This document shows, piece after piece, positions 20,253-58,962 of a stretch of DNA of 64,000 nucleotides. The stretch comes from Capitulum mitella (taxonomy: Eukaryota; Arthropoda; Thecostraca; Pollicipedomorpha; Pollicipedidae), in contig CP099854.1 of the NCBI GenBank assembly GCA_030062745.1, forward strand, positions 12,782,153 through 12,846,152, read 5' to 3'. The notes beneath the pieces were generated by a model that saw nothing but the letters and a program-made list of their open reading frames with translations, was not told the DNA's origin and searched no databases. How positions within the stretch are numbered: the first letter of the stretch is position 1; every line of letters begins with the position of its first letter. Position numbers and translations under genes: made by a program.

Positions 20253-20325
20253 GCCGAAATAGCTCAGTTGGGAGAGCGTTAGACTGAAGATCTAAAGGTC
20301 CCCGGTTCGATCCCGGGTTTCGGCA
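20253..20325 (+). tRNA. tRNA-Phe: tRNA-Phe(GAA), copy 1
   Basis: A 73-base tRNA with discriminator A. Acceptor GCCGAAA pairs with TTTCGGC, the anticodon arm is TTAGA-CTGAAGA-TCTAA (anticodon GAA), and the T arm is CCCGG-TTCGATC-CCGGG. The A box (TAGCTCAGTTGG) and B box (GGTTCGATCCC) are intact and a TTTT Pol III terminator follows at 20327. No intron; CCA is not encoded, as expected for a nuclear tRNA. Confidence 0.97.
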
Positions 20326-20659
20326 GTTTTCAAATAAGCATGAAATCCTTAGCCTCGTATTGTCAGGCGGTAAGATACGAATTTTCGATTTCAATGGCAA
20401 TTTTAGATTTGATATGGACGGAAATATTTCGCCGCTTTCCACCTAACTGGGCTGGCGAGGGAGATGACTCCTCCCATTTGTCTATCCCGAGAACCAACTG
20501 ATGCAACTGTCACTGTTCAGCGTAAGGATTTCAATATTCCGTGCCTTTTGTCCTCAGTCCTTCACATTTGGGAGTTGATTGAATCATTTCTTTACATGTA
20601 ATGAATTTCTGAAACATGCTCCCTCGCGCCTCACTTTCTTGTAGACGAAGTTTGACATG
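20326..20659. repeat. spacer between tRNA-Phe 1 and 2, inverted at 25453-25773
   Basis: The spacer matches the reverse complement of the spacer between the two minus-strand tRNA-Phe genes. Examples are GTTTTCAAATAAGCATGAAA, TGGGCTGG.GAGGGA, GAGAACCAA.TGAT, AAGGATTTCA and GAAACATGCTCCCTC in order. The whole tRNA pair is thus an inverted duplication. Confidence 0.85.
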
Positions 20660-20732
20660 GCCGAAATAGCTCAGTTGGGAGAGCGTTAGACTGAAGATCT
20701 AAAGGTCCCCGGTTCGATCCCGGGTTTCGGCA
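20660..20732 (+). tRNA. tRNA-Phe: tRNA-Phe(GAA), copy 2
   Basis: Identical to copy 1 over all 73 bases, with all stems paired and a TTTT terminator immediately downstream. It sits 334 bases after copy 1 on the same strand. Confidence 0.97.
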
Positions 20733-20939
20733 GTTTTCAAAATATAATACTCGGAAGAGTTGATTCTTCACGTTAACAATGGGGCAAAAAATGTCAATTC
20801 GGTATTAAATAGCGTATTACGCCACGTTCTAGGTAACGATGGTCTGACAGTTCTGACGCCCATCCCCTCCATCTCGACAAGTAAGACGAACGGTCAGCTT
20901 TCGATGGTTCTGCTCGCAATCACTAGTCATTAAACCTTT

Positions 20940-21190
20940 TCTCATTCAATTTTAGAAATAGCGCACTCATTTCAACAATAAGCGAGATGGATTCCGGCCA
21001 TTCGGCGTAGTGCAGCCTAGTTAAAATAATCAGTACGCAATTTAGCACAGGAGCACACAATGCAGCAACAAGGGCAACCGATTTCGGCGGAACCGCATTT
21101 GAGGCTGAAATCAACCAATTTAGGCATAGTCCAACGAATTCAAGTATTGTGATAACGACACGCCTGGGTGCTGATTTCAATTTAAGTTGC
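20940..21190 (-). repeat. dispersed repeat X, inverted copy
   Basis: The reverse complement matches 24355-24620; shared blocks are GCCTAAATTGGTTGATTTC, GCGGTTCCGCCGAAATCGGTTGCC (in parts) and TGTGCTGATTATTT. Both copies contain degenerate GCCGAAATC-like repetition. They lie symmetrically between the two tRNA pairs. Confidence 0.75.
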
Positions 21191-21244
21191 TGCAACAGCA
21201 GCGGAGTTCTAGTGATCACATAGTCAGAAGAGCTTAAACGGAGC

Positions 21245-21590
21245 TCAGATATGACCCAATATCATTTACAGGTCAATCTTAGCGTTTTCACTCCAACATC
21301 ATCCGCTGTCATGCCGCGAGGTCAATGATAACAGTCATCAGTTTAGGTACACTTAGTGTCGAGCAAGCCCAGTTATTCTCACCGTTTCTAAGGTTGCAGG
21401 TGACGGATTTGACGCACGTAAATTACATCTACCAGCGCGGTAAACGCGTAGGTAACTACCTACGTATTTACCGCGCTACGCTTACCGCTTACCTTCTACA
21501 TATGTGACAACGTGTGTGGGAATATTTCGCTTAGCTGTTCACATAACTTAATAATGTGAACAATGGGGACATACGCGTGTAACTTAAAAC
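21245..21590 (+). repeat. dispersed repeat A/B/C, copy A, with internal palindrome
   Basis: Shares CGTTTTCACTC, TGCCGCGAGGTCAA, GTCATCAG.TTAGGTACA, GAGCAA.CCCAGT and GTTCACATAA with copies B and C. A 42-base near-perfect hairpin at 21435-21476 (GCGCGGTAAA / TTTACCGCGC outer stem) suggests a foldback or MITE-like element. Confidence 0.65.
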
Positions 21591-21609
21591 AATGGAGCTC
21601 AGATATCAG

Positions 21610-21935
21610 AATATCAGTTGCAAGTCGGACAATGTTACCGTTTTCACTCGAACAAGTCCTCTGTCCTGCCGCGAGGCCAAAGACGACTGTCATCAGTTAG
21701 GTACATTCGGTGCCGAGCAAACCCAGTCAATCGTACCGTTTCTGTAGCTGGTGGATTCCCCCCCCCCCACGCCACTTGCTCTACTACACGCGTAAGTTAA
21801 ATTCTTAATACATGAAAAAATTCCAGTTAGGAAATCACTCGACGGAGATAGCTACCTGCAACATTTCTAGGAATATTTAATTTCGCTTTTCACATAATTC
21901 AGTTACGTTTACATCCTCTAGGACTAACAACTTAT
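21610..21935 (+). repeat. dispersed repeat A/B/C, copy B
   Basis: Direct copy of the same family just after copy A: CGTTTTCACTCGAACAAG, CTGCCGCGAGGCCAA, GACTGTCATCAGTTAGGTAC, GTGCCGAGCAAACCCAGTC. Its 3' part is shared more weakly. Confidence 0.65.
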
Positions 21936-23388
21936 TTATGGGAACATTTGGGACATCGCAAAAAATATAGTAAATAAACGAATAATTATCCTCACTATGC
22001 AACCACGATGTATGTGTTGCTGAGGCACACGTACAGCAACGGGACAAGATTTGTCCGATCACGGCTGGCGTTTACATAATGATATAAACGCAAAACGAAG
22101 CAGGAAAAAACAACATTGCTTGGGGCAAGTTTTGCACAAAGCACACTCCCGTGCTCCTTCACTCTGTGGGCTTCTAGCCGGTGATGTCCTCCCGGGCGGC
22201 ACAGGCTGACAAGGAGTGCCGGTACTCCAGTTGAACTTTCTCCCTCGTCACGGACTGCAACGACGTCGCGATCCCATCTGTCAAGATACCACACCGCCAG
22301 CCGGCGAGCGTTCCTTCAGATCGAGCTACCGCTTGCGTCATCCATGTGGTGTTAGTTGACAACTGGGTGTTGTCTGATGGTGGACTTCATCACGGTTCTG
22401 TTACACTAATTACACGTTCTACATGAGGCTCAGAAACGGTGAATACGGTGGCAGTCTCCTGAGTTGATGTGATGCCGGTAACACCACGTCTTCAATGGTC
22501 CCATGAGGAGTGCGTTAAGGAAGAGAAAAGTGGTCTCTTCGTCTTCTCCGATTATTGCGCTGAGGCTGTGTGTAACGTCAGGGGACTGCTCCCAGTTTAC
22601 GCTTCTGCCAACCAGCTCATGGTAGATTAGCCCATCTGCGTAGCGGTCACTGATGGCTTTGATGAAAGGTCAGGCTCCTCCCTCGTAAACCGCAGACAGT
22701 GCAGAGAGCCCGCTCTTAAGCTGCAGTCCTGGTCCTCATGAGATGGATACTGAAACGTTCTCGTCAATGTACGTACCTCGGTGCCGTGCCAGTTCAGTCA
22801 CCATCATCCAGTTGGAGTAGCTGACGCGTTCGTCCTTCATACTCTGAGCTTCTCTCCGCCGGTCGGGATAACACCTTCTTCACAGTGATCGGCAAGCCGT
22901 GCTGCGTTTTGGATAGGGTGGATGTGCTGACCGCTGGTTTGTTCGGCCCTGTTTCCATCAGGATCACGTTCAGTCGGTCAAGGTCAGTTGGGGATTATCC
23001 TCAATACATAGCACCAGAGGATCCCGGCACCCCTGGTCGAGCTTGTCGACCACTCGCCCTCCCCTTGGTCTCGTTCCTCCTCCTCTGCCCGCAGTTATTT
23101 GGCAATGACGAACCATGCTGTGCCGTGTTTGATGTCCAGTCACCTGGCGTCATCAGCGTAATCCTCTTCTCATGTGTGAGCCGAGATCAGCGCCCAACGA
23201 TTTTCATCAGACAGTCGCCTGAATTTCCTTCGTGGTCGTCTTTGACCTCGGGGCATGAAGCTAGATGACGTCTATCACGCTGGATGACATGACGCTCCAA
23301 TGACATCTATCAGATCGACTGGCCTCTGTGGAATGATTCCGATCACATTTATGCTCCACAGGTTTCGGCTTTTTTGAGTGGTTGTTTA
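21936..23388. other. no gene recognised; faint minus-strand coding-like stretch
   Basis: Minus-strand frames at about 22170-22900 read through two-codon-scale interruptions (for example SDRYADGLIYHEL and IIGEDEETTFLFLNALLMG), which could be a decayed unknown protein. I recognise no family. The CpG-rich plus-strand frame at 22885-23268 is not supported either. Confidence 0.3.
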
Positions 23389-23570
23389 CTGGACTTCAGG
23401 GGCACAGCCAGGATTTTCTTAAGGGGGAGCTCAATCTGACCTGAAATCATACGAAAACCGCCGCTGGAAAAACGAAACGCAATGGTATTCACAAAAAATG
23501 CGGACCTAAGGGGAGCCGGGCCCCGCGGCCCCCCCGCCCCCCGCCCTTTGGCTGCGCCGGTGCTGGACTT
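23389..23570. mobile_element. hAT-type MITE with perfect 8-bp target duplication
   Basis: The 166-bp body 23397-23562 starts CAGGGGCACAGCC and ends GGCTGCGCCGGTG (short terminal inverted repeats). It is flanked on both sides by CTGGACTT (23389-23396, 23563-23570). An 8-bp duplication and CAGGG termini are hAT hallmarks. The same family occurs inverted at 32681-32842. Confidence 0.9.
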
Positions 23571-23925
23571 AACCTGCCATGGCAACGCGCCCGCATAACA
23601 ACACTTCACCTCACAGCCGCCTGCTGACCTTTGACCTTTAGGGCTGACATGGCCCCGGGCACTCACACCGATGCCGTACACTCTACAAGCGAGTGTCAGC
23701 GCTAACCAGGCTAGAATTGTAACCACAAAAACCAAATTAACATCCAGGCTCGTTGCCATCACAGTGCCTGAATTGGCTGACAGATGCCTTATCGATTGCA
23801 GTGTGTCGAAATGATGTTCACAAGGCAAAGTCCACCGCTCTAATCTGACATTGCCGCTGAAAATGCACCATGACATGATTACAGAATTAAATCTTCGGAA
23901 GAATTATTCGTTTATTTATTATATC
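23571..23925. other. no gene recognised
   Basis: Unique-looking sequence between the MITE and repeat copy C; nothing supported. Confidence 0.4.
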
Positions 23926-23929
23926 ATTC

Positions 23930-24240
23930 GCGTATGCCCCCAATGTTCACATAATTCAGTTACGTGAACAGCAAAACGAAATATTCCCGCACACGACGTA
24001 GGCAACTTCCTACGCATTTACCGCACTGGAAGAAGAGATAACATGCGCAGTGGAGCGCGCAGCTTGGGGCGGAGGCGGGGGGGGGGGGCAAGGAGAAGGG
24101 CGAAAGCTATCACGTACCTCAGAAACCGTGAGACTGATTGGACTTGCTCGGTACCGAGCGTACCTAGATTGACGACAGTCGACCTTGACCTCTCGGCATG
24201 CCAGCTGACGATGTTGTTTGAGTGAAAACGGTAAGATCGT
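23930..24240 (-). repeat. dispersed repeat A/B/C, copy C, inverted
   Basis: The reverse complement carries the same ordered blocks as copies A and B (CCGTTTTCACTC, ATGCCGAGAGGTCAA, CGAGCAAGTCCAATCAGTC, GCGGTAAATGCGTAGG, GGGAATATTTCG, GTTCACGTAACTGAATTATG). Confidence 0.65.
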
Positions 24241-24354
24241 CTGCCTTATAAACGATGTTCGGTTATAAATGTGCTCCATAGTATTAATTTTTTCTAACTG
24301 GTTGATGACTGAAACTCCGCTGTCATTGGAGTACATTGAATGAAAATCTGTACC

Positions 24355-24620
24355 GCAGCATGTGTTACCACCATGTTGGTTTGGTTGAGTTATGCCTAAA
24401 TTGGTTGATTTCCGCCAAAATCAATTGCACTATTCCGAAATCACGCGCCTATGCCGAAATCAATCATCCTAATCTGAAACTGAATGCGGTTCCGCCGAAA
24501 TCGGTTGCCCTGCTCCCGAACTGTGTCTCCTGTGCTGAAATGTGTGCTGATTATTTAAACTAGGCTGAACTTTGCCGAAAGGCCGAAGTCGACTTATTAA
24601 TGAAATGCGTGAGTTGTTTC
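24355..24620 (+). repeat. dispersed repeat X, direct copy
   Basis: Partner of the inverted copy at 20940-21190. Contains seven to eight degenerate GCCGAAATC-like words. Confidence 0.7.
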
Positions 24621-25379
24621 TAAAACTGAGTGAGAAAATGTGTGGAAGTGCCGCTTTTAAGCCCGCAAGTTCACCGTTTGCTGTTCTTTCTCTTTTCTGA
24701 ATCTTCAAATCTTGTTGCGGATTTTACCAGCTGGCCTTTGTGTGTTGTGAAGGAGCCAGATCCTAAACTTTATTATTTTCCAGTTGTAAAACTTCCGAAA
24801 GTTCCTTTGTAGATTGGAGAAAATGGCTCACATTAAAAGGATAATGTGCACGCCGAAATGACTTCACTGGCAGAACTTCATAATAGAGAGCTTGTCCGGC
24901 AAGTGATATAGGTTTCAGGCATCTCCAGGGTCCAGTTTCATAAGACTGGGTAGGTCCGCAAAATTTCGGTACGTACATTTTGTGGAAGTACCCACTCGTA
25001 CATCGCGGCAAACCATCCCTGGGTCTGCCTTCCTAAAAGCAAATGTGCGAACCCACAAACCTTCAAGAACACGTCTTGCAAAAGTACGAAGGATCACTAA
25101 GTCAGTTCACCGGGAGAACCAGGGGCGGGGGAGGCACGGTCCCGTGTCGTCGGAAAAGGCCAGCGTGTCTCTTGGTCTGCTCTTTTCGGAAGGGAAATGA
25201 CTGTTTTCGAAGCTTTTTTTATCGAGGGCTATCCAAATACAAAGGGTGAAGGGGGGGGGGTGAAAATTCCCAACCATCACGATCTGAAAAGTGGCCAAGT
25301 ATGCTTCATGCCGGACTAACCATCTTTGATGGATTCTTGCCGTGCTGAATCATCACGTCCGTGTGTCATATTTCAAAAC
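24621..25379. other. no gene recognised
   Basis: Short frames only. A G-run lies at about 25250-25260. Confidence 0.4.
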
Positions 25380-25452
25380 TGCCGAAACCCGGGATCGAAC
25401 CGGGGACCTTTAGATCTTCAGTCTAACGCTCTCCCAACTGAGCTATTTCGGC
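25380..25452 (-). tRNA. tRNA-Phe: tRNA-Phe(GAA), copy 3
   Basis: Reverse complement identical to copies 1 and 2 across the mature tRNA, with anticodon GAA and a TTTT terminator downstream on the minus strand. Its 5' flank corresponds to that of copy 2. Confidence 0.97.
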
Positions 25453-25773
25453 CATGACTGTCACTGGCTACAAGAAAATGAGGCGGGAGGGAGCATGTTT
25501 CAGAAATTCATTACTTATGACGAAATGGTTCCGTTAACTCCCAGATGTAATGGTGTGGGGACAACATGCATGAAATACTGAAATCCTTCCGCGGAACAAT
25601 GACAGTCGAATCATTTGGTTCTCAAAGAGGACGAAAGGGACGAGTAATGTCCCTCACCAGCCCAGTAGTTGGGAAGCGGCTAAATATTCCAATCCATGCA
25701 TCTTGTCCGTGCGTCAGTCCGCATCTTGCCTACTGATGGAGCCAAATTACGGGTTTCATGCTTATTTGAAAAC
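25453..25773. repeat. spacer between tRNA-Phe 3 and 4, inverted copy of 20326-20659
   Basis: Reverse-complement homologue of the spacer between copies 1 and 2, with moderate divergence. It has drifted while the tRNA genes stayed identical. Confidence 0.85.
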
Positions 25774-25846
25774 TGCCGAAACCCGGGATCGAACCGGGGA
25801 CCTTTAGATCTTCAGTCTAACGCTCTCCCAACTGAGCTATTTCGGC
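25774..25846 (-). tRNA. tRNA-Phe: tRNA-Phe(GAA), copy 4
   Basis: All 73 bases match copies 1-3; TTTT follows downstream on the minus strand. It pairs with copy 1 in the inverted duplication. Confidence 0.97.
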
Positions 25847-27294
25847 CACAGTCACTCCGTCTACAAAGCGAAGCGGGGGATAGGGGGCCAAAGCTTGGTC
25901 TGGAAATCAATTACATATGTTTTATAGGTGACATACATCGTCAAGGGAAACGTAAAGAAGAATATAGTCACAATCTGCTCTTTTGGTAGAAATCTGTTTT
26001 TATACAGAGCTGACAAAACAAACATTATTGCGTATGTACACATACATACCGGCCACCACCGAAGTTAGTTGGCAGCAGAGGCGGCCCATGGCGTACTTTT
26101 CCCTCTAGCCCATAGAGTTTGCATGTTAAATTCCTCATTGTCACCGAACTATGTCTCAGCTGCCCTTCGGCAGGTTGCAGTTATTGTCGCACCGTGTGAT
26201 AGTTCGTTTCATTGCCTTCTGGCGATCTCAGTAGCTTTTTTCGCCACGTGGACCAAACTACTATGGCTACCGGGTGAAAACATGCCCGTACCAGATTCCC
26301 CGGTTTTCTGAGGTTTGCATGACCATTAACTGATCGGCCGCGTTAGTGCAGACGTTTAGTACCTCGACTGCGGAGCGTAAGGTCACGGGATCGAATCGCA
26401 GCCGAGGTGTCGCTTCCAGGTCCTGCATGGCGCGCTTTTCACGGATATCGGTAGTTAACAGCCCAACTGTGCATTCCATTCTACATTCCCTTGAGAGTGT
26501 AATACAATTGCAACTACGTGGGATGTTGCCAGGATTACGCTTGGGATGCTCCGCACGAAGTTTTCGGATGATGAGCATCGTTAGGCCTGACACTGATATA
26601 CAACGCTCTTCCGTGCTATTCAGAATGAGCTTATTCAAACACAATCTTCTACCATGTTCGACACTTCTCATGATGTAACTTCTGTTTCCTAGTTTGAGCG
26701 CATAATAATGCATGGATGAATGTTTGTATTCGTTATACGCAGTCATGTGTTTTTTACGGGTATTACTTAAAAGAACTGTCAAGTGAAAGTGACTGACGTT
26801 TATTGTTCAACCTTTTTTTTGTCTGCCTTTTGTCCCCTTAGGGCCAAAAGGTTGCCATGTCCCCCCCCCACTTTTTGGGGAAATTTAATATAAATTTAAT
26901 AATAACATTAGCCCTAAGAACAAAAACGTCTCTTCCCCTCCCCCCAGGCACCCACTTTTCTGGATACTTCTTTGCTCCTGCCAACAACAATATATTATAA
27001 ACAGAGACATGTTTGTGATCAACATTTATTGAAAATTATGATTTAGGAGGCATATATATCATAGCATTAACTTCTGATTTATCATGATCAAAGGTCACAG
27101 CGCTCGTCATAGACGAGAGATGAAATATATTAACGTAGGAAACATCTGGGGCGACAAAAAATAGGAAGTAAGAAAAATGTGAAAAATAGTAGCAATGGTG
27201 ATAAAATGGACGAAATAATGCTAACAATTTATGCTATTCATCGGAACAAGTTTAAACCTAGTAAAAAAACATGTGTAAGATAGCACATTAATCG
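25847..27294. other. no protein gene recognised; weak tRNA-like segment
   Basis: At 26335-26410 a segment has an A-box-like GTTAGTGCAGACG and a B-box-like GGGATCGAATCGC, suggesting a decayed tRNA-derived SINE head; it does not fold into a clean tRNA. C/G homopolymer runs occur near 26862. Nothing else is supported. Confidence 0.35.
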
Positions 27295-27335
27295 TGTATA
27301 TATATATATATACGTCTATATAAATTTATATGCAT

Positions 27336-27405
<70 letters not shown>

Positions 27406-27406
27406 C
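27295..27406. repeat. (TA)n(TG)n microsatellite
   Basis: Broken TA repeats from 27295, a pure TA run at about 27338-27383, then TG to 27405. Confidence 0.97.
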
Positions 27407-28134
27407 AGGCACTCATAAAAATAATGTCAGACATTGATAAAAAAGGCACACATAAAAATATTGCTGGAACAGTAATACTAAGACCAAAACACAGCAAAAA
27501 AGCAAATAAATGGCAAAAACTAGAGTACAGTATCCTGTATACGTGGTACTCACTGTAAAACTGTTCCGTCACAAGTAACGAGACCACAACACGGTAGGCA
27601 CAGAAGCAAAACCAAAAAATGTCCTGTATATAAGGTGCCCACTACAACACTGCTGCAGGACAACAAGTCTAGAACGCGGTAAAAAATATATAGCAAAAAC
27701 TAAGCAGATCCTTACATGAAATCAAACAAACAGGCGTGTTGTAAGAAATCGGCCAAGGGCTTTGGCACGCATAACATTAATGTCGCCAAGACCAAAAGAA
27801 CATATAGGGATTGACACTATGTGGTCTTTTTGTCACTCAGTGAATCAGTCAGTCGCTGTACCAAATATACCGCTACTAAAATATCCTTCATAATCGAAAC
27901 ATCTGCGTCATCTTCCTTTGAAAGCAGAGATACCAAATTCAACATGAAACTATGAGGTGTGCCAGCAAAGCGGCGACCTGGTACAAATCTTGTATTATAC
28001 CGAAATATTAGGACTTAACTTTGTTCTCCCGTTTGTCTAGTACCCTGCATGCATACAGCGCGTGTGTGAATCTATTGACTTCCAACAGCTGGCAAGGCGG
28101 CAAACAAGTGCCGTTGCGTTACGCAGTTGGAAAC
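27407..28134. other. no gene recognised
   Basis: AT-rich sequence with only short frames; nothing supported. Confidence 0.4.
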
Positions 28135-28207
28135 TACCGAAACCCCGGATCGAACCGGGAACATTTTGATCTTCAGTCCAACGTTCTCCCAACTGAGCTA
28201 TTTCTGC
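28135..28207 (-). pseudogene. tRNA-Phe pseudogene, copy 5
   Basis: Aligns over 73 bases to the other tRNA-Phe genes with about ten differences. The acceptor (GCAGAAA against TTTCGGT) has a mismatch, the anticodon stem (TTGGA against TCAAA) is broken, and only TTT instead of TTTT follows. The anticodon loop still reads CTGAAGA. The 5' flank is a copy of that of copy 1. Confidence 0.9.
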
Positions 28208-28345
28208 CGTGAAAACGCGAATTTGTGAGACAAATGGGTGCAGCTCGAAAATGAAGCGCCATGCCACGAAAATGTGGAAATGCGTGTCACGGGACACCTG
28301 AAGTGGCACTACACACGCGCACCACGGAACTCCAATGAGAAGGCG
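28208..28345. repeat. duplicated flank of the tRNA pseudogene
   Basis: Inverted match to 20113-20252 (see that entry), about 75-80% similar by eye. Confidence 0.75.
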
Positions 28346-28877
28346 CCACGTGGCAGCACGCCGAACAATGGGGAGGGGGCTCGACGTTGTCGGTGAGGAG
28401 CGCTTGTGCGTGCCGAGTTTGTCGTGGCTTAATTGGCATGTTTTGTGCAGAAATAAGCAACACGGGAAGTTTCACTGAAAGACTATCAAGTACGCCAAAT
28501 TTTGTAATGTGCGAATTAAGCGCAACTGATACAGAATGCATAGCATCAAACCATAACCGTTGGTTGCACTAACGGATGTAACTGCATCGTTCAGAGCTAG
28601 TTCTCTCTGAATTTCGGGTCCTTTCGTCCTATACGCTCCGTATTGCTCATGCTGGATAACCGTAGCGGTTGACATGTGCTTGTTGAGCGTCGCGTGAAAC
28701 CCTGAAGTCCGACCGTGTCTGGTTCTCGAAATAGTCTTGACTGCATTATGACAAAATATTCCAGTCCACGCCGTTAAAATGCAAACCGAAAACTAAGCAA
28801 AGCATTCTGGGGGTACGCATCCTAACCTTCACCAGAGCTTATGAGAAACTTTTGGAATGTCACGTGCACGTCAAAAT
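28346..28877. other. no gene recognised
   Basis: Unique-looking sequence between the pseudogene and tRNA-Phe copy 6; nothing supported. Confidence 0.4.
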
Positions 28878-28950
28878 TGCCGAAACCCGGGATCGAACCG
28901 GGGACCTTTAGATCTTCAGTCTAACGCTCTCCCAACTGAGCTATTTCGGC
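28878..28950 (-). tRNA. tRNA-Phe: tRNA-Phe(GAA), copy 6 (fifth intact gene)
   Basis: Identical mature sequence to copies 1-4 with a TTTT run downstream on the minus strand. Its flanks do not obviously match the paired spacers. Confidence 0.97.
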
Positions 28951-44139: not shown

Positions 44140-47045
44140 GAAACAACCACACCTCGGAGTCACGAATTATGTATTAAAAACTAACTGTTCCGAGCCATCT
44201 CGGTTCCTTATCAAAGTTTCACAAATACACAGCATCAGTTCTGTCACACACATTCACCGGCCATGTTTTTTATTAACAAACGCACATGAAACAATTCAAA
44301 CGGAGCCTTCACTGTAGTGTTTCGCTTTAACCATGCCCGCTACTACTTTATTGGAAGAAAACTGACCTGGTGATGTATTTTATATTTTCTGTTGTGCTCA
44401 TCAATGCTGACTGCACGATGCACCTTTTACTATAGTCGTTCGAACTGAACACGTTTTGGCCTGGTGAAAATCTCGTGAATGACTAAAATCCCTAGCATGA
44501 TAAAAAGTGGTGCTTTTTTCGTTTCCAACCCGTATATCCCTCAGGTGTTCGTTTCTCCTTTTTGACAAATCCCTCTCTGTCTCCCCGTGATAGGCTCTTT
44601 TGGGGTACTGTTTACGTGGGATAGCATAAACACCAATGTTTTTGTCACTTTTTCTCTAATTTCTTATCAAATTTTCCTAGCGGTGATGGGGTGCGTAAAT
44701 ACCACACGCACACTTTCCTCGTGGCACACTTGTTTGAAGCCCTTTGGCCTTCGTTATACGGTAGTTTTTCTAGCTGACAAATGGGATTCATGAATAAACC
44801 ATTCCGGATATCGCAGTCCTACGAATACTCTTTTAATGTTTTCTATTCCATTCGCAAGTTTTTCTGAGTTACAAATCCTATACGCCCTGAGGAATAATCC
44901 CGAAATCACTGTTCTTTCGTCTGTTTATCATGAAAAGAATAATAATGCAAGGAAGTGTTTGAGTTAGCCGGCTTTCTAGAAACCGAAAAATGTAGCCCTG
45001 TGGGTCCTTTGTACACCAAATTATCCAAAAAACGGATATGGTTCTCCGTTTTTCACTCAGTTTAGAAGTTGACCCATGAATGAAGATTATGCAGCTGAGT
45101 GCAAAAACTATCACAGTGGCTATCTTCAGGCCAAATTAAAAAAAAAACATCATCTACGTACCTAAGCCAAACCAAGTTGGGTGGAGCTATATCTTTAACC
45201 CTATTCCCGGCAGGGGGGGCGGAATCGGCCCCCCTCGGGTTTTTTGCTTGTCAATTTCAGGTTTTTTAACGCAGCTTCACAAAACTTGGTGACTTTTCCT
45301 AGCTATTCTTTCTACGTGCTGTGACAAAATTTCACAATTCTATTTTGCTCAGGGGCGGAGCCAGGCAACGTTTTTGGGAGGCACCTCATGCCATTTTTGG
45401 CCATGTTGAGGGTAAAATAAAAATGTCTGCCAAAAACAGAGTTTTGAAGATAGAACATAAAACTTTAGATGGATGTATAGTTAAATGGTTGGGCAATGTG
45501 CAGATATAATTTTGTTTATCTGAGGTCATTTTACAAGGTCGGATCAAGGTCAAAAGTCAAAGTTTGTTTTTTTGCAATAATTTCGGTGCCGTTTTTCTTT
45601 TAATGCCAAACTCGGAATATATATGACGTAGAAGGGTGCCTTCTACTTGTGTACGAAGTTTCAGCTTGATATCAGGTCGGGTCACGGAGCTATGACCTAA
45701 AATGTCAGTGCGCGTACCCTATATCGCAATAGCCGTAAAATGAAATTTTTGAAATAGAGTGAATTCCAATGATTGAAAACGTTTACAGATAATATTAAAT
45801 GCACACGAGATCATTCCAAGTGACCCCAAGGTCACTGGAGGTCATTTAAGGTCAAAGGTCACAAGTTGATCTGAGAAACGTGTGACCATGACAGTTCCCC
45901 CTTTTTCATGTCCCTGGCACCGCCTATGCTAACATTATACAAACATTGTAATGCGATTTGTACTTCTTTAGTATAACATGACTATCAGAAGCCAAAAAAG
46001 GGTGTTTGCCTCTTTTGTTCATTCAGTTGCTAGAAAACTAATCCTCCTATTTTTGAAACCCTGTGAACGCCCATGAATTTCCCAAAAATTTCAGATTTGC
46101 GGACCCATGGTAAAAGCCCTATTCATATTCTATCGATTCATGCCAGTTTCATCGAAATCGGTCGATAAACAACGGAGTTATAAGAAGTCCAAAAGTACCC
46201 CCCATTTTGACATTTTTGCCCCCCTGTATCTACAAATTTCAAAATGTTGAAAATTTATTTTTATAAAAATGTAGTTCACGTCACGGCAAATCGATTGCCG
46301 TTTGTTGCGATGAAATCGGACAAGTAGTTCTCGAGATCTCGGGGGGGGGGGCCGAATCCGCCCCCTGCCGGGAATCGGCCATACCGTCTAGCCCTCCGGG
46401 AATAGGGTTAAGATACTTGCTTTCAGAGTACTCTATGAAATGGTTGGACAAAATAGGTAAAAGGGTATTTCCTATGGCTGAGCCCTCCTGCTTATAAAAC
46501 GTTGGCTGCGAATACATTGTAGTCTACGACAACTTTAATGAGATCTATAAATTTCCCGTTTGTTACCGGCATGTCTACGTTAAACCTCGGAAGGATTTCT
46601 TTTAGATACTTAATCGTTTCCTTGACGGGTGCCATTGTGAATAACGATTCCACGTGAAAAAATGACTAAGCGACTATCCGGAGGTAATATCAGTCCCTTG
46701 GTTTTCTCACAGAAATTCTGACTATTTTTCGGATGGGAATCAGAGCTCTGACCTACGGTGGGAGCGAGACGATCGGCAAACTATTTTGACAGTTTATGTC
46801 ATTGAACCAACGTTTGATGTGATGGACCTGATGGGCATGCCTACCTTGTGGGTTTTAGGAAGACCGTCCATATAAGGCAGAAATGGATTCATGCTTTGGA
46901 ACTGCTTATATAAGCCCGTCTTCCCCAACCCTTTCTTGAAAAGTTTGGCCCTGTCTTCTAGCGGGTTTTTTGTCAGCTTTTCGTATGTTCCCGTGTCCGT
47001 CAGTAGTTCAACCAGCTTCGCATTGTAGTTAGTGATCGAAAATTA
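44140..47045 (-). mobile_element. Penelope-like retroelement copy, minus strand, 5'-truncated and split by a TTAA element
   Basis: Read from 47040 downward. The N-terminal RT region gives LVELLTDTGTYEKLTKNP and GLPKTHKVGMPIRSI. Then FYKQEGSAIGNTLLPILSNH (about 46425-46500, the usual MGxPLSP position) is cut by the TTAA element at 45199-46407. The RT continues below 45197, and a GIY-YIG-type C-terminal segment (KRINEHRRDIRVG-like with HARD and SNDY blocks) lies at about 44290-44600. RT followed by GIY-YIG is the Penelope-like signature. Frameshifts and stops are frequent, so it is dead. Confidence 0.85.
45195..46411. mobile_element. TTAA-target (piggyBac-type) non-autonomous transposon, copy 2
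   Basis: The body 45199-46407 (1209 bp) is bordered by TTAA on both sides, in opposite orientation to copy 1 but alignable end to end. It splits the minus-strand Penelope-like RT. The other Penelope copy keeps the intact site (TTAA near 47580), so the four-base duplication is directly visible. Confidence 0.9.
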
Positions 47046-48690
47046 CTAAAAATCAAGAAACTTTTGGGGAAGACGGCTTATATAAGCAGTTCCAAAACCA
47101 TCAATCCATTTCTGCCCTATATGTACGGTCTTCCTAAAACTCACAAGTTAGGCATTTCCCTCAGGTCCATCACATCAAACGTTGGTTCAATGACATAAAC
47201 TCTCAAATCAGTTTGCCGATCGTCTCGCTCCCACCGTAGGCCAGAGCTCTGATTCCCATCTAAAAAACAGTCAGGATTTCCGTGAGAAAGCCAAGGGACT
47301 GGCATTACCTCCAGGTAGTCGCTTAGTCATTTTTCATGTGGAATCGTTACTCACAATGGCACCCGTCAAGGAAACGATTAAGTATCTAAAAGAAATCCTT
47401 CCGAGATTTAACTTAGATATGCCGATAACAAACAGGAAATTTATAGATCTCATTAAAGTTGTCATAGACTACAATGTATTCGCAGCCAACGTTTTAAAAG
47501 CAGGAGGGCTTAGCCATCAGAAAACCCCTTTCACCTATTCTGTCCAACCATCTCATGGAGTACTCTGAAAGCAAGCTTCTTAAAGATATAGCTCCACCCA
47601 ACTTGGTTTGGCTTAGGTGCGTAGATGATGTCTTTTTTTCAATTTGGCCTGAAAATAGCGACTTTTATAGTTTTTTTGACTCGGCTGCATAACCTTCATT
47701 CATGCATCAACTTCTTAGTTGAGTGGGAAACGGAGAACCATGTCCGTTTTTTGGATATTTTGGTGCACAAAGGACCCACGGGACTACATTTTTCGGTTTC
47801 TAGAAAGCCAACTAACCCAAACGTTTACTTGCATTATTATTCTTTTCATGATAAACAGACGAAAAGGCAGTGATTTCGGGATTATTCCTCAAGGCGTATA
47901 GGATTTGTATCTCAGAGAAACTTGCCAATGAAATAGAAAATATTAAAAGAGTATTCGTAGAACTACGATATCCGAAATGGTTTATTCACCAAATTCCATT
48001 TGTCAGCTAAAAGAACATTTCTCTTAAAAAATAGGAAGAAACGACGTTTCAAAAAATGTTTAGTTCTACCGTATCACGAAGGCCAAAAGGCTTCAAACAA
48101 GTGTGTCACGAGGAAGGTGTGCGTTTACGCACCCCAACACCGCTAGGAAAATTTGATAAGAAATTAACCAAAAAGTGACAAAAGCATTGGTGTTTATGCT
48201 ATCCCTTGTAAACAGTACCCCAAAAGAGCCTATCACGGGGAGACAGAGAGGGATTTGTCAAAAAGGATAAACGAACACCGGAGAGATATACGGGTTGGAA
48301 ACGAAAAAAACGACTTTTTTGTCATGCTAGGGATTATAGTCATTCACGAGATTTTCACCAGGCCAAAACCGTGTTCAGTTCGAATGACTATATTAAAAGG
48401 TGCATCGTGCAGTCAGCATTGATCAGCACAACAGAAAGCATAAAATATGATCACCAGGTCAGTTTTCGTCCAATAAAGTAGTAGCGGGCATGATTAAAAC
48501 GAAACACTACAGTGAAGGCTCCGTTTGAATTGTTTCATGTGCGTTTGTTAATAAAAAACATGGTCGGTGAATGTGTGTGACAGAACTGATGCTGTGTATT
48601 TGTGAAACTTTGATAAGGAACCGAGATGGCTCGGAACAGTTAGTTTTTAATACATAATTCGTGACTCCGAAGTGTGGGTCTTTTCAATAA
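47046..48690 (+). mobile_element. Penelope-like retroelement copy, plus strand, 5'-truncated
   Basis: Mirror image of the minus-strand copy, about 90% similar by eye, starting with GLYKQFQ-like sequence at about 47076. The stretch 47338-47568 reads PVKETIKYLKEILPRFNLD to LIKVVIDYNVFAAN. Then LVWLRCVDDVFF (about 47603-47640, the RT DD motif) and FLDILVHKGPTGLHFSVSRK follow, and ISEKLANEIENIKRVFVEL (about 47905-47960). The GIY-YIG segment is at about 48225-48520. The 3' end meets an (AT)n run at 48719. Stops and frameshifts are present. Confidence 0.87.
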
Positions 48691-51892: not shown

Positions 51893-52413
51893 CTAGCACG
51901 CAGTTTTGTGGTCTCCAGTGGTTACTGTCAGAGATGTAAAGAGGTTCTCTTTAAGCAGCTTTGAGCTGAAAGTAACTGAAGGTTGGGAAGAACTCAATAA
52001 GGAAAGCGGATTATTGAGAGAGCGTGAGATCGAGCCCGAGAAGTGACGTGACTGGATTAACAGTGCGGTAAATACTGTCAGTGCGAAATGAAATGAGACG
52101 CTTCGCCCTGGTCGGGCGGCTGAAGAGAGTGCCGCTCCGCCCTCACCAGCATCCTCGCCGACACCGAATGAAACTGCTTCAAACTGAGACCGTAAGCTTT
52201 CATCTGAGGTCGTAGAAGTCACCACTTATTGACCTCTGTCACTGCGACGTCGGACTTCGCTCTCCCAGAATGGACAGAACTGCGTCGATTACTTCAGTAG
52301 CACAACGGCGGGCGAAATCCATGGCCAAGAGAATGGTTGTCTTCTTGCTTCGTCGCTGATGGTTGATGATATCCGATGTAAGTGTGGCGTTTTGGCTTAT
52401 GACGCCTTAGAGT

Positions 52414-52630
52414 GTCCCCCCAAAAATGCCAACCATCGAACAATTATGTTAATCAAGCGGTTACCTGTTGCTTTTGGGTTCAAAGGAAGGCATACAAAAA
52501 ATTGGCTCATTAAATTAATATTTGACCCTACACAAACTCCTCGAAGTTGCTCCCATTGTACTCAGTGGAGACTTTAATATCACAACACGACCGATTTCGC
52601 GTTTTTTGCTGGAAATGCCGCATGTGTAGT
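52414..52630 (+). repeat. left terminal inverted repeat of the 3.66-kb element
   Basis: Blocks shared with the right end in order: CCAACC, AATTAT, CAAGCGGTT, CCTGTTGCTT, AAAGGAAGGCAT, CAAAAAATTG, TTAAATTAATATTTGACCCT, CAGTGGAGACT, ACACGACCG, TCGCGTTT and GCCGCATG. About 75% similar by eye. Confidence 0.85.
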
Positions 52631-53009
52631 CTTCACAGTATTAAACGACGGTTTTGGGGACATAATCTGATAATGATAATAATCTGATAATGATAACACC
52701 AGACCCTTCCCCCCACACACTCCTCCGCTCCCCCACTCCATCACGCCTAATGGCAGCTCATGAAGACGAAACAGTCCATTGATCATCCGCCCATGCTGAT
52801 TACTTGTATGTTATAGTTCCAGGCAAATTTCACACCTATGTAAGGGACATTTTCTGGTCGTCAGTATAAAGACCAGTGTCTGATGATCCACGGTAACCCA
52901 AGGATTATCCGAGGGATAAGGAGCATTGCCAGGTGTTGGTATTTCGAATGAGGTCCACGAGGAATGCCTGGAAGTAAAAGTTGTGTATACAGCAGTCACA
53001 ACTGTTTGT

Positions 53010-54700
53010 TCAAAGGACTGAACAACATTTATACTCGCAACAGGGTAATGGCAACCAGGCATGAAACGGATATGGGCTTCCACAGCATAACACACCACTT
53101 TTTGATGCTTGCATCCATCTGAACCAACGGCCCTTAGCGAGAACGGATTTCTCTCTGTCTGAAAACCGTCTGCGGTGTTTTTCTGCGACTTGAAGATTGT
53201 GCTGTCTTTCCTCGTCATCCCTGGTGACGCGGCCGATGTACTCCGTTATCATCCTGACCCCTTGCTCAGCTGTGTCGTTGGTCACTCGGACGGCGGTTAC
53301 GAAGGTTGACGGCCTCTCGTACTCGGCCACGCTGTCCCATGGCGGGTTCTTGTCCATGAACGACGCATCGATGGACAAACTGTCGAAGATGAGACGAGAC
53401 TGACCATCCACGAATCCATCCAAGACCACGTCCTCTGTGCTGTCATCCTGCGGCAGTACAGGAAGTCTTGGCCTGCCGGGGGTAAGCGACGCACTGTCCA
53501 TGCTCCGGATACCTCCATCTATGCTCTTTTTAGTGACAGCGTGAACGTTTTCGCTGACAAGCGCCATAGGTATCAACTCAGCTGTGAAACGCCATGTGTG
53601 CCTGCAACATGGTGCCATGACGGCCTCGGCAACCTCTTCAGTCGGTCCTGCTGTATGCCACTAGATTTCTAAACATTTTGAGGTCATTATGGGCGGCATC
53701 GGCAGCAAATGTCCAGGACAACCACGCATCCACAAAGAAGAAACTAGCAAGGATTGGAAGTCTTCCTAGCTTCTCGGACGTGTCAAGTTGGGTCATTTTC
53801 TGAGCCAGGAGCCGTGATCTAAAAAGGAACAGCTTCAGACCGCATATGACGTGCGCCATTCACCTCGCTCTATGACAGGCGCCGGGCTTTCGTAATTTTG
53901 GATTCTTGCTCCGATCGAGACTATCCGTCGTGCCACCGAGGGCGAGCAGGGTGCGCTCTCTGTAGTGTTCCTTGAGGTTGAATGAGTGTGTCTGTAGTGT
54001 TCGTTTCAGAACTTCTAGAATTGCTTCTTTCGTTGTTTTCAACTCCTCGTGTAGCATCGGTTGTTCGAATTCACTTTGGTCGATATCTTGTGTGGTGTTT
54101 GATCGTGACCAAACTGTTCTGTCCAGGCAGCTTCCGCCGGAAGCTCGTGAGTATGGTGCCGACATGGTAAGTAGAGCAGTTTCCTGATGAGCGTTTGCTC
54201 CAGCTTTATAGCAGCACCCTTTTACCATTTCGGTTTTGACGACGTCGTGTCAAATGAAATGGTCCGAACAATATTTTCCACACTCCGCTCACGAACACAC
54301 TGAATTTTTTTAAAAACTTCTACTTATCGTGGAGTTTAACCAGTTTCTGAGTCACTTTTTGAACCCGAATTGCCGGAAGGGGGACCGCTTGATATAAATA
54401 TATCATGTTGTGTGCGACCTGGCCAGTACGAGCTCTGACCGAATGCGCACCATTTCTGTAGCATTGCTCAAGGCAGTACAGAAGTCTGAGACAATTCACC
54501 TCCTGTGGGCAGCTGCGTTCGGGACAGCACATTCAGCGGCTTTCCCACGAGCCATAAAGCATCCTGTCGAAGGCTGACTATCAGTGGCAGCCCCGATGAT
54601 TCCTTTTTTTCTTTCCAGGAGCTGTATAACTCTCTTCCTGGCCGCATTTTCAGCATATTCACTTAAAACAAACCATCTCTTCAAAGAAACCAACGATGTA
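53010..54700 (-). pseudogene. uncharacterised multi-copy animal protein, decayed, inside the TIR element
   Basis: Minus-strand pieces in order: LIVSLRQDALWLVGKPL (about 54535-54590); MLHEELKTTKEAILEVLKR then LKEHYRERTLLALGG (about 53935-54065); KPGACHRAR, a TGA where Trp is expected, then MAHVICGLKLFLFRSRLL (about 53810-53885); HNDLKMFRNLVAYS (about 53640-53690); and an open 202-codon stretch 53010-53618 with DGFVDGQSRLIFDSLSIDAS, TAVRVTNDTAEQGVRMITEY and QHNLQVAEKHRRRFSDREKS. I recall this block order (HxARWMA..I..LK...FR, then VxNDxAERGV..I.EY, then VVxxHR) from many anonymous multi-copy animal proteins; that recollection could not be searched. Its role is unknown. Frameshifts and stops show decay. 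Confidence 0.6.
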
Positions 54701-55857
54701 GAAACGAAACAGTGATCAGATGAAGTTTCGGTAAACCAAACGAGACACACTGCAGGCTCCTGCCTCTGGGAGGATATCTGTGTTTGGAGGCAAGGCCCTA
54801 GAAGTCCAGGTAAAACCGTCCGGCCAGAGGAGCGTCTGGCGTGACGTCACAGGCAACATGCCGCCGTTCACCCAACATGTAGGTAGTGTTAAGTCGAGCA
54901 CTTTTACGTTATTTCAACAGTAACCATGATAAATACAACAGAAGCCAAATATATGAAACAATAGCCTAGTCTAAAACTGACAGCTACTTACGGTCTACAC
55001 CAAACCAGTCCTGTTCAACGTCGAATAAAGGATCCTGCCAAGACTTGATCGCCTGGCAAGGTCCCCACTCCTGCAACATGCCTGCAACTGTCCCAGCCCT
55101 CAAAGGTCTGCCAACTTTTAACCCCACGCCGAAGCCAACCTAAAAGGATCTACAAAAATATAAAGCTGTCTCTACTGATATAATCAAACATGAAATACAA
55201 CCAGATAATTCCTGATCCCTGTCCCCTTCAGAGCGCATCGTACGCAAGCTGCCGGCATAACCGAGTAGCCAGATGACGGCCGTCCCACGCCGGCCTCCCA
55301 TTGGTCAAAGACCGTGACGTCACAGGCGACACCCGAATACGTTATTTTGATAGGGTCGGTTACGGGCTTGTTCGGAGGTACCTCAGCAATGAACAGCTGG
55401 GGTTGCTTTCGAAACAGCTGTATCGCTTGCGGAGAGCCAGCCGAGAATGTGGTGTTCGCAATTTACTGCCAACGCTGACGTGCTCTCCAACTGAAAGGCT
55501 ATCCGCTGAAGCTAACGATATGTTCGCGGTGCTATCGGTATAAGTTAATACTGAAAAAGGTAGGGGTATTTGAAATATCAAACCATCGGAGGCGAATTGG
55601 CCAACATGGATTATACAGTTCGATTCAGGCCAGTTTCCCCTTCAATCTTGCGTGTAAGTTAAAATTCTAGATTGGGCTACGCCCACTTCCTTTAACGATA
55701 TCAGTCGATTGTATTGTCATTGTGATTCCCTCCTCCAGGTCGTGTGTGTGTGGCGGTGCGGTGGGAGGGTACGGTGGCGGCGCAGTGCACAGGTATTCAA
55801 AACGCTGCTATGAACATCACATAAATGCCTGTCATAACAGCTTCGTTAAATGGATGT
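54701..55857. other. interior of the TIR element; no further gene recognised
   Basis: Short frames only (for example 55301-55543, plus strand). If the element encoded an N-terminal transposase domain here it is no longer legible. Confidence 0.4.
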
Positions 55858-56071
55858 CATGCCGTCTCTTCGGATGAAACGCGACAAACGGTCGTGTTCT
55901 TGCGTTGCAGTCTCCACTGAAGCATATGGAGAAAGTTTATAGTATTTTTGCTAGGGTCAAATATTAATTTAAGAAGTCAATTTTTTGCATGCCTCGCTTT
56001 GAGTCTCCAAGCAACGGGAAACCGCTTGGTAAATAATTTTCCTTTTAAAAGTTGGTAGATTTGGGATACCC
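55858..56071 (-). repeat. right terminal inverted repeat of the 3.66-kb element
   Basis: Inverted partner of 52414-52630; its outer end reads, on the minus strand, GGGTATCCCAAATCTACCAAC. Confidence 0.85.
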
Positions 56072-56079
56072 TAATGACA

Positions 56080-57635
56080 TCCTATAACCTTGCTTCCATG
56101 CTGAGGATTTCGCTTAAAATCCATACAAGGGAAGGGACCGATTCCCCCTTTCCCAACATCTGCTGATTCACTGGACCGATTTCAACGAAACAGGGCTTAA
56201 CCCTATTCCCGGAAGACTAGGCGGTATGGTCGATTCCCGGCAAGGGGGCGGATTCGGCCCCCCCCCGAGATCTCGAGAACTACACACCCGATTTTATTGC
56301 GACAAACGGCAATCAATTGGCCATAACGTAGAGTACATATTTATTAAAAAAAAATCTTCAAAATTTTGAAAAGTGTGGATACAGGGGGGCATCCATGTCA
56401 AAATGTGGGGTGTTTTTGGACTTCTTATAACTCCGTTGTTTATCGACCGATTTCGATGAAACTGGCATCAATCGAGCGATTATGGATAGGACTTTTACCA
56501 TTGGTACACACATCTGAGATTTTTGGAAAATTCATGGGCGTTCACAGGGTTTCAAAAATAGGATTAGTTTTTTAACAACTGAATGAACAAAAAAGGCAAA
56601 AACACTTTTTTGGCTTCTGCTAGTCATGTTATACTAAAGAAGTACAAATCGCGTTACAATATTCGTATAATGTTAGCATAGGCGGTGCCAGGGACATGAA
56701 AAAGGGGGAACAGTCATGGTCACACGTTCTTCGGATCAACTTGTAACCTTTGACCTTAAATGACCCCCAGTGACCTTGAAGTAACTTGGAATGATCTCGT
56801 GTGCATTTAATATTATCTGTAAACGTTTTCAATCGTTTTGATTCACTCTATTTCAAAAATTTCATTTTATGGCTATTGCGATATAGGGCACGCGCACTGA
56901 CATTTTAGGTCATAGCTCCGTGACCCGACCTGATATCAAGCTGAAACTTGATACATAAGTAGAGGGCTCCTTTTTACGTCATATATATTCCGTGTTTGGC
57001 ATTTAAAAAAAAACAGCGCAAAAGTAATTGAAAAAAAAAATTGACTTTTAACCTTGACCTCACCTTGTAAAGTGACCTCAGACGAACAAAATTATATCTG
57101 CACATTGCCCAGCTATTTAGCTATTCATCCGTATAAAGTTCTAGTTCTATCTTAAAAATGCCGTTTTTGGCAGACATTTTCCTTTTCCCTCAACATGGCC
57201 GAAATGGCCTGAGATACCTCCCAAACACGTTGCCTGGCTCCGCCCCTGAGCAAAATAGGATTTTGAAATTTTGTTGCGGCACGTAAAAAGCATAGCTAAG
57301 AAAAGCCACCAAGTTTCGTGAACCTGCGTCAAAAAGCCTGGAATTGGCAAGCAAAAACCCGAGGGGGGAGGGCGAATTCAGCCCCCCCGCCGGGAATAAG
57401 GTTAAACCGGAGCTTGTGATCTTGACTAACTTGTCAAGCATGGACAAGTACCAAGAAATGTGAGTGGCGCCTTCAGGACAGTAAAAATGGGTTAACGGCC
57501 TATTTTCTTCCTGAGACATACGATGTTTCTGGTACTTACTTCGACTTTGAAATCATTGTTTTGGCTGGAAAGTTAGTCCTGAAGTATGTTGGTAAATATT
57601 TTTTCAGCAGTGACAGATTTAGTTATTGTATTTAA
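56080..57635. repeat. inner left arm of the cuticle-gene palindrome, split by a TTAA element
   Basis: 56080-56200 and 57406-57635 together match the reverse complement of about 58098-58440, about 80-85% by eye: ATGCTGAGGATTTCG, GCTGATTCACTGGACCGATT, AAACAGGGCTTAA, then ACCGGAGCTTG, GTGAGTGGCGCCTTCAGGAC and AAAAATGGGTTAACGG. Confidence 0.88.
56197..57405. mobile_element. TTAA-target (piggyBac-type) non-autonomous transposon, copy 3
   Basis: The body 56201-57401 (1201 bp) lies between TTAA at 56197-56200 and 57402-57405, in the same orientation as copy 1. The opposite palindrome arm has the empty site GGGCTTAAACCGGAGC (about 58322-58337 complement), proving a four-base duplication. Confidence 0.92.
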
Positions 57636-58097: not shown

Positions 58098-58440
58098 AGT
58101 TCAGAGCCTTGAAACTGTCATTGCTGAAAAAAAAATGTTTGCCAACATACCTCTGGACTAATTTGCGAGTCAAAACAGTCGTTTTAAAGTCGACATAAGT
58201 ACTAGGATTATCGTATGCCGGAGGAAGAAAATTGCCCGTTAACCCATTTTTACCGTCCTGAAGGCGCCACTCACATTTCTTGCTACTTGTGCATGCTTGG
58301 CAAGTTAGCCAAGATCGCAAGCTCCGGTTTAAGCCCTGTTTCGTTGAAATCGGTCCAGTGAATCAGCAGATATCAGGGGGAGGGAATCGGCCCATTACTT
58401 TGTATGGATTTCAGTCGAAATCCTCAGCATGTAAGTCAGG
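58098..58440. repeat. inner right arm of the cuticle-gene palindrome
   Basis: Uninterrupted partner of the inner left arm. A minus-strand frame (57943-58320, 125 codons) crosses it, and the left arm stays open in the same frame (KKCEWRLQD, YVGK.FF), but differences between arms are mostly amino-acid changing, so it is not called a gene. Confidence 0.85.
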
Positions 58441-58962
58441 CTACAGGACGTGTCATAAGTGAAAGCACCACATTAACATCCGATATCACCAATCATCAGC
58501 TGCGAAACAAGAAGGCAGCCATTCTCTTGTCCATGGATTTCGCCCGCCGTTGTGCTACTAAAGTAATCGACGCAGTTCTGTCCATTCTGGGAGAGCGAAG
58601 TCCGACGTCGCAGTGAGAGAGGTCAATAAGTGGTGACTTCTTCGACCTCAGATGAACGCTTACGGTCTCAGTTTGAAGCAGTTTCATTCGGTGTCGGCGA
58701 GGATGCTGGTGAGGGCGGAGCGGCACTCTCTTCAGCCGCCCGGCCAGGGCGAAGCGTCTCATTTCACTTCGCACTGACAGTATTTACCGCACTGTTAATC
58801 CAGTCACGTCACTTCTCGGGCTCGATCTTACGCTCTCTCAATAATCCGCTTTCCTTATTGAGTTCTTCCCAACCTTCAGTTACTTTCAGCTCAAAGTTGC
58901 TTAAAGAGAACCTCTTTACATCTCTGACAGTAACCACTGGAGACCACAAAACTGCGTGCTAG

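Follow-up and report, generated by a model that had tools for sequence, protein, structure and literature searches.

A dead transposon copy in Capitulum mitella and its younger sister families: a probable transposase from an unnamed animal protein family, in elements that may work like hAT

We found that a stretch of 64,000 nucleotides from Capitulum mitella (contig CP099854.1; this whole stretch is called the window here) contains a dead copy of a DNA transposon, with long terminal inverted repeats (TIRs) and the remnants of a protein from an unnamed animal family. It is rather probable, in our judgment, that the copy belongs to an autonomous lineage of cut-and-paste transposons that works like hAT and has hAT as its nearest relative, either as a very divergent branch or as a sister group; membership in hAT is not established. 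On the sequence evidence given below, the unnamed protein family is probably the transposase of these TIR transposons. Their mobility is settled by two younger sister families, called B and C here (the family of the window copy itself is called A), in which ends, target duplications, and protein travel together. Judged by the identity of the copies, the spread is recent.

The initial annotation had placed a TIR element at 52397..56079. This element is real: the alignment of its two ends with each other scored 189, whereas 200 shuffles of one end reached no more than 45. Its TIRs, which had been put at about 215 bp, are most distinct at positions 31-197, counted from each end, where 132 of 160 aligned bases are identical, and a looser similarity extends to about 215-270 bp. 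The termini read TAGAG at 52408 and CCCTA at 56073 (Table 1). We set them at these positions because the sister and family copies start with TAGGG (at one end, TAAGG) right beside their duplications; in the end comparison, TAGGGTGTCCC was the start of other family copies. The letters of the flanking pair proposed earlier, TTATGACG/TAATGACA, are present, but this pair straddles the element ends and is shifted by 2-3 bp. The best pair is ATGACGCC/ATGACATC, matching at 6 of 8 positions.

The other arm of a palindrome had been proposed to hold the empty site of the element at about 58440-58465, and both element flanks do align across this site without the insert. The palindrome arms are 97% complementary at 51400-52403/58452-59455 and 81% complementary at 56077-56146/58382-58451. 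The empty arm carries 2 additional bases here, so that a site that was never filled cannot be distinguished from one left by an old excision. The inverted duplication to which the arms belong (51119-52403/58452-59739, 97% complementary) carries two near-identical cuticle-protein-like frames of 184-185 amino acid residues, which we take to be of the RR-2 type. The identity of this duplication falls to 81% just past the insertion site.

The protein blocks noticed earlier on the minus strand of the element are present in broken frames. Three pieces found by tblastn (E 6.4e-32) are collinear with residues 354-737 of an intact sister protein. In the window copy, a stop codon at 53860-53862 occupies the place of the Trp codon conserved in the family (Trp512), and a second frame break lies ahead of the C-terminal part.

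The genome searched consisted of 477 Mb in 16 contigs. The left TIR of the window copy gave 18 matching places, corresponding to the window and 14 other loci. All of the 14 other loci have a match to the window protein up to about 4 kb away, and most of these matches are partial or contain stops. In the case of the family A copy at C9:1222948-1226940, the 8-bp duplication is perfect (TCTACCAT); at C9:9.36 Mb, as read from the flanks, 7 of 8 positions agree, provided that one base is skipped. For the family A end, a looser pattern had 11 matches with at most 2 mismatches, against 1 for a control pattern, and 5 of the 11 are at family A loci.

A search of the genome with the protein led to near-identical sister copies. 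It is in these sister families that full-length copies with an intact frame between TIRs and with 8-bp duplications, which the initial annotation had suggested looking for, were found. Three copies of family B share 3.54-3.57 kb at 99.6-99.8% identity and have one frame of 747 codons (743 amino acid residues from Met). Among the 62 matches listed, at least 8 family B copies have an uninterrupted frame of 743 residues with 99-100% identity; this count is a lower bound, with frame scoring covering 60 of 2,922 candidates. The family C protein is 52% identical to that of family B, and the protein length is about 743-757 residues across the families. The ends of families C and B differ by a single base (TAGGGTGG in place of TAGGGCGG). 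The aligned TIR length is 115 bp in family B, 241-265 bp in family C, and 160 bp in the window copy.

The sister-family end TAGGGYGGCACTTA occurs exactly 97 times in the genome, against 4 occurrences of the reversed control pattern, and a listed protein match lies within 4 kb of 93 of the 97. Every one of the 37 facing exact TIR pairs encloses a protein match. The exact pairs of families B and C come in two sizes, one of about 2.9-3.2 kb and the other of 3.46-3.53 kb. No short non-autonomous copy with exact ends was seen among the 37 facing pairs, the shortest of which is 2,907 bp, and short non-autonomous derivatives were therefore rejected as the origin of the ends.

The protein had been suggested to be encoded by a TIR transposon or to act as its transposase. 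The first part holds, as the protein is carried between TIRs flanked by 8-bp duplications; the transposase role is one that we infer. Because the catalytic role has this standing, one may argue that the protein is a passenger and that another transposase moves the elements. We regard this as highly improbable: the protein is the only frame of more than 300 codons in the three intact elements read, it is enclosed by every facing TIR pair, and subfamilies with different TIRs each retain it.

Six loci (C15:2.62M, C3:0.46M, C3:5.53M, C14:2.70M, C15:14.20M, and C3:17.44M) were also observed to have paired matches to the C-terminal part of the protein, close together and on opposite strands. At C15:2617025-2621371, the inverted arms are about 750 bp long and 81% identical, and no recognizable TIR of families A, B, or C was found at this locus. 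These opposite-strand pairs could represent a palindromic derivative lineage.

We inspected 37 copies of the sister families for target duplications. Both ends were readable in 35 copies, of which 32 belong to the 37 facing pairs and 3 have a variant end; the two unreadable copies had no end in the sequence read, one of them being mostly N and stopping 5 bases before the listed end. Perfect 8-bp duplications were found in 33 of the 35 readable copies, and of the remaining two, one has a single mismatch and one has no duplication. As the duplications are 8 bp long and are not TA, Tc1/mariner was ruled out. Among the 34 good duplications, seven lie in AT repeats and read ATATATAT; we give these little weight. 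Of the 27 duplications other than ATATATAT, 18 have T at position 2 and 19 have A at position 7, with flank frequencies of 0.31 and 0.34, respectively; the binomial tails, with strands mixed, are 1.5e-4 and 1.2e-4. The consensus of the duplications is a palindrome near nTGTACAn.

These features resemble those of hAT in several respects. The end consensus of hAT is YARNG, which the TAGGG ends fit. The 8-bp duplications, and the preference for T at position 2 and for A at position 7, are also present in hAT elements and Hermes, the target preference of the latter being given as nTnnnnAn in PMC10368747 and PMC8721813. In Kolobok, the duplications are 4 bp of TTAA (PMC9587614), whereas here they are 8 bp and varied in sequence. 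In the mechanism that we propose, the transposase would bring both TIRs together, cut the element out, and insert it at a target cut with an 8-bp stagger.

We aligned 11 members of the protein family, six of which are pieces of broken copies, and counted conservation over the members covering each column. D308 (9/9), D372 (10/10), C401 (11/11), W512 (10/10), and E706 (10/10) are conserved, and the residue order D, D, CxxH, W, E is common to hAT and the family protein. In our reading, the protein would have an RNase H-like core, with a metal-binding triad that may consist of D308, D372, and probably E706. By analogy with hAT and MULE (Mutator-like element) enzymes, the flanking DNA would be handled by C401xxH404 and W512 where the ends are cut.

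Pfam, NCBIfam, and PDB gave no match to a known superfamily; as to Dada, Novosib, Academ, and Zisupton, this negative is based on the Pfam scans, to the extent that Pfam includes models of them. The family B protein had no Pfam match at E up to 10. At the same limit, the 11 members matched only three stray families, in one member each, the best being DUF6262, a domain of unknown function (E 0.0016). NCBIfam gave only E values of 0.43 and 8.2, and PDB gave none, either by single sequence or by profile. The Pfam test works, because Pfam recognizes real hATs and a P element of the same genome. For the window fragments, Pfam showed no relative, with two matches under the curated cut-offs. No relative was found in collections of plasmids, phages, viral contigs, and prokaryote contigs, which has no bearing on the spread of the family among animals; degenerate-codon scans of the viral contigs gave 10 stretches, none of which is a relative (best tblastn E 0.13). 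Searches of an open paper library, mostly at the level of titles and abstracts, gave nothing for the protein blocks and brought up no paper that presents this family as a transposase; Repbase lies outside these searches and may list the family. The HWDGK, SFDTT, CRHH, and ND.AERGVALMQEF blocks are presumably widespread in uncharacterized animal proteins.

The kinship of the core was tested by shuffled-sequence z scores against transposases of the same genome. With three hATs, family B reached z values of 3.3, 4.1, and 3.1, the second Asp and CxxH being in register in each alignment; with two MULEs it gave 1.0 and -1.2, and with a P element 0.7. For family C, the corresponding values were 2.5, 3.3, and 1.3 for the hATs, 1.3 and 0.5 for the MULEs, and 1.3 for the P element. 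In comparisons with a fourth and a fifth hAT, z was 0.6 and 3.9 for family B and 1.8 and 3.2 for family C. Over all the hAT cores compared, z ranged from 0.6 to 4.8, a weak kinship signal; as a yardstick, two hATs of different lineages gave 6.6 in the same test. In the single core alignment spanning both Asp residues and CxxH, the partner is a hAT. We take the alignment signal as a hint of hAT kinship, not as proof.

P elements also have 8-bp duplications. They belong to the group with a C/DxxH motif, which is common to five superfamilies: hAT, P, MuDR, Kolobok, and Dada (PMC9587614). The P domains PF21787, PF21788, and PF12017 had no match in the family protein, although a P element of this genome matches them; the core z scores against P are the 0.7 and 1.3 given above, and a profile comparison with a P element gave P 0.37.

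MULEs such as MuDR and Muta1 have TIRs longer than 100 bp, duplications of 8-10 bp, and a CH motif with W, according to PMC5225508. The family studied here likewise has long TIRs, 8-bp duplications, a CH motif, and W, and it could accordingly be regarded as a divergent MULE. We consider this very unlikely. The MULE domain PF10551 had no match in the family protein, although it finds the MULEs of this genome, and the core similarity to MULEs is at the level of chance in both sister families. Furthermore, Muta1 is described as being without target preference in the same paper, whereas a preference is present in this element.

Several observations weigh against kinship with hAT or against the role assigned to the protein. 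Dimer_Tnp_hAT (PF05699), DUF4371, or any other hAT domain had no Pfam match in the 11 members at E up to 10. The protein has no N-terminal BED zinc finger, its first Cys being at residue 114 in family B and 148 in family C, whereas a BED finger is predicted in all hATs according to PMC10368747. The TIRs align over 115-265 bp, compared with the 10-25 bp usual in hAT (PMC3942097). As to the core scores, the first two hAT values of family C came from alignments out of register, one of the additional hATs gave only 0.6, a hAT and a MULE gave 2.4 when compared with each other, and z for full-length comparisons ranged from -1.0 to 2.6. Profile comparison with DUF4371-type hATs gave P 0.04-0.09, with 1 of 40 shuffles equally good, and that with the other hAT type gave 0.07 (out of register) and 0.71. 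In the protein, D567 and E611 are as invariant as E706, and thus the third catalytic residue is uncertain; H404 missed the conservation cut of at most one exception. Finally, 4 of the 97 exact sister-family ends and 6 of the 11 loose family A ends are away from any listed protein match, so that the association of the protein with the TIRs, complete in the 37 facing pairs and at the 14 left-TIR loci, may not extend to every end. Because the hAT domain and the BED finger are missing and the TIRs are as long as 115-265 bp, we do not file these elements as hAT and say only that they work like hAT.

The initial annotation had suggested an undescribed superfamily. Such a superfamily, separate within the C/DxxH group (hAT, P, MuDR, Kolobok, Dada) and sharing the same cut-and-paste chemistry, would be defined by the HWDGK/SFDTT/CRHH/ND.AERGVALMQEF protein, 8-bp duplications, an nTGTACAn-like palindromic target, the lack of a BED finger, and recent movement. 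We regard it as a tentative possibility. It agrees with the absence of a match in Pfam, NCBIfam, and PDB, the missing BED finger, the long TIRs, and a kinship with hAT that is under the usual significance. On the other hand, the TAGGG ends, the 8-bp duplications, and the bias for T at position 2 and A at position 7 are jointly the behavior of hAT, and the order of the motifs and the weak core alignment point in the same direction, the only core alignment across both Asp residues and CxxH being with a hAT. We therefore retain as our preferred reading a lineage that works like hAT.

Table 1. Features of the transposon copy and its empty site in the window
Feature	Position	Strand	Remarks
Transposon copy, dead	52408..56073 (3,666 bp)	coding strand -	ends from comparison with family and sister copies
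Left TIR, starts TAGAGTGTCCC	52408..52650	+	clearest at 52438-52604
Right TIR, starts TAGGGTATCCC read inwards	55850..56073	-	clearest at 55877-56041
Left target duplication ATGACGCC, then one extra T	52399..52406	.	6/8 against the right one
Right target duplication ATGACATC	56074..56081	.	6/8 against the left one
Matching uninterrupted site, other palindrome arm	58440..58465	-	palindrome-arm and flank alignments
Putative transposase remnant with SFDTT (second Asp) and CRHH, one internal stop	54093..54305	-	tblastn with intact sister protein, residues 354-424
Putative transposase remnant with GACHRAR and MAHVICGLKLFLFR	53653..54060	-	tblastn, residues about 455-585
Putative C-terminal transposase remnant with VTNDTAEQGVRMITEY, shifted frame	53142..53633	-	tblastn, residues 584-752

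Other repeats and genes were observed in the window. Five tRNA-Phe genes with the same anticodon lie at 20253-28950, two on the plus strand and three on the minus strand. At 2475-3459, a 30-bp unit is repeated in tandem about 33 times (97% matching), with several open frames on both strands. Inverted repeats of 70-480 bp that are nested and 79-93% complementary occur at 45000-47779 and 56196-57368; their spacing is 0.2-2.6 kb around 45-48 kb and about 10-12 kb between 45-46 and 56-57 kb.

If the preferred reading is right, a protein family that is covered by none of Pfam, NCBIfam, and PDB would be recognized as one of transposases, and multi-copy genes left anonymous in animal annotations could be classified as transposons. 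With near-identical copies at hand that have uninterrupted frames and perfect duplications, the mechanism can be tested. For the question of how the hAT, MULE, and P transposases diverged, a hAT-like enzyme that lacks a BED finger would be informative as well.
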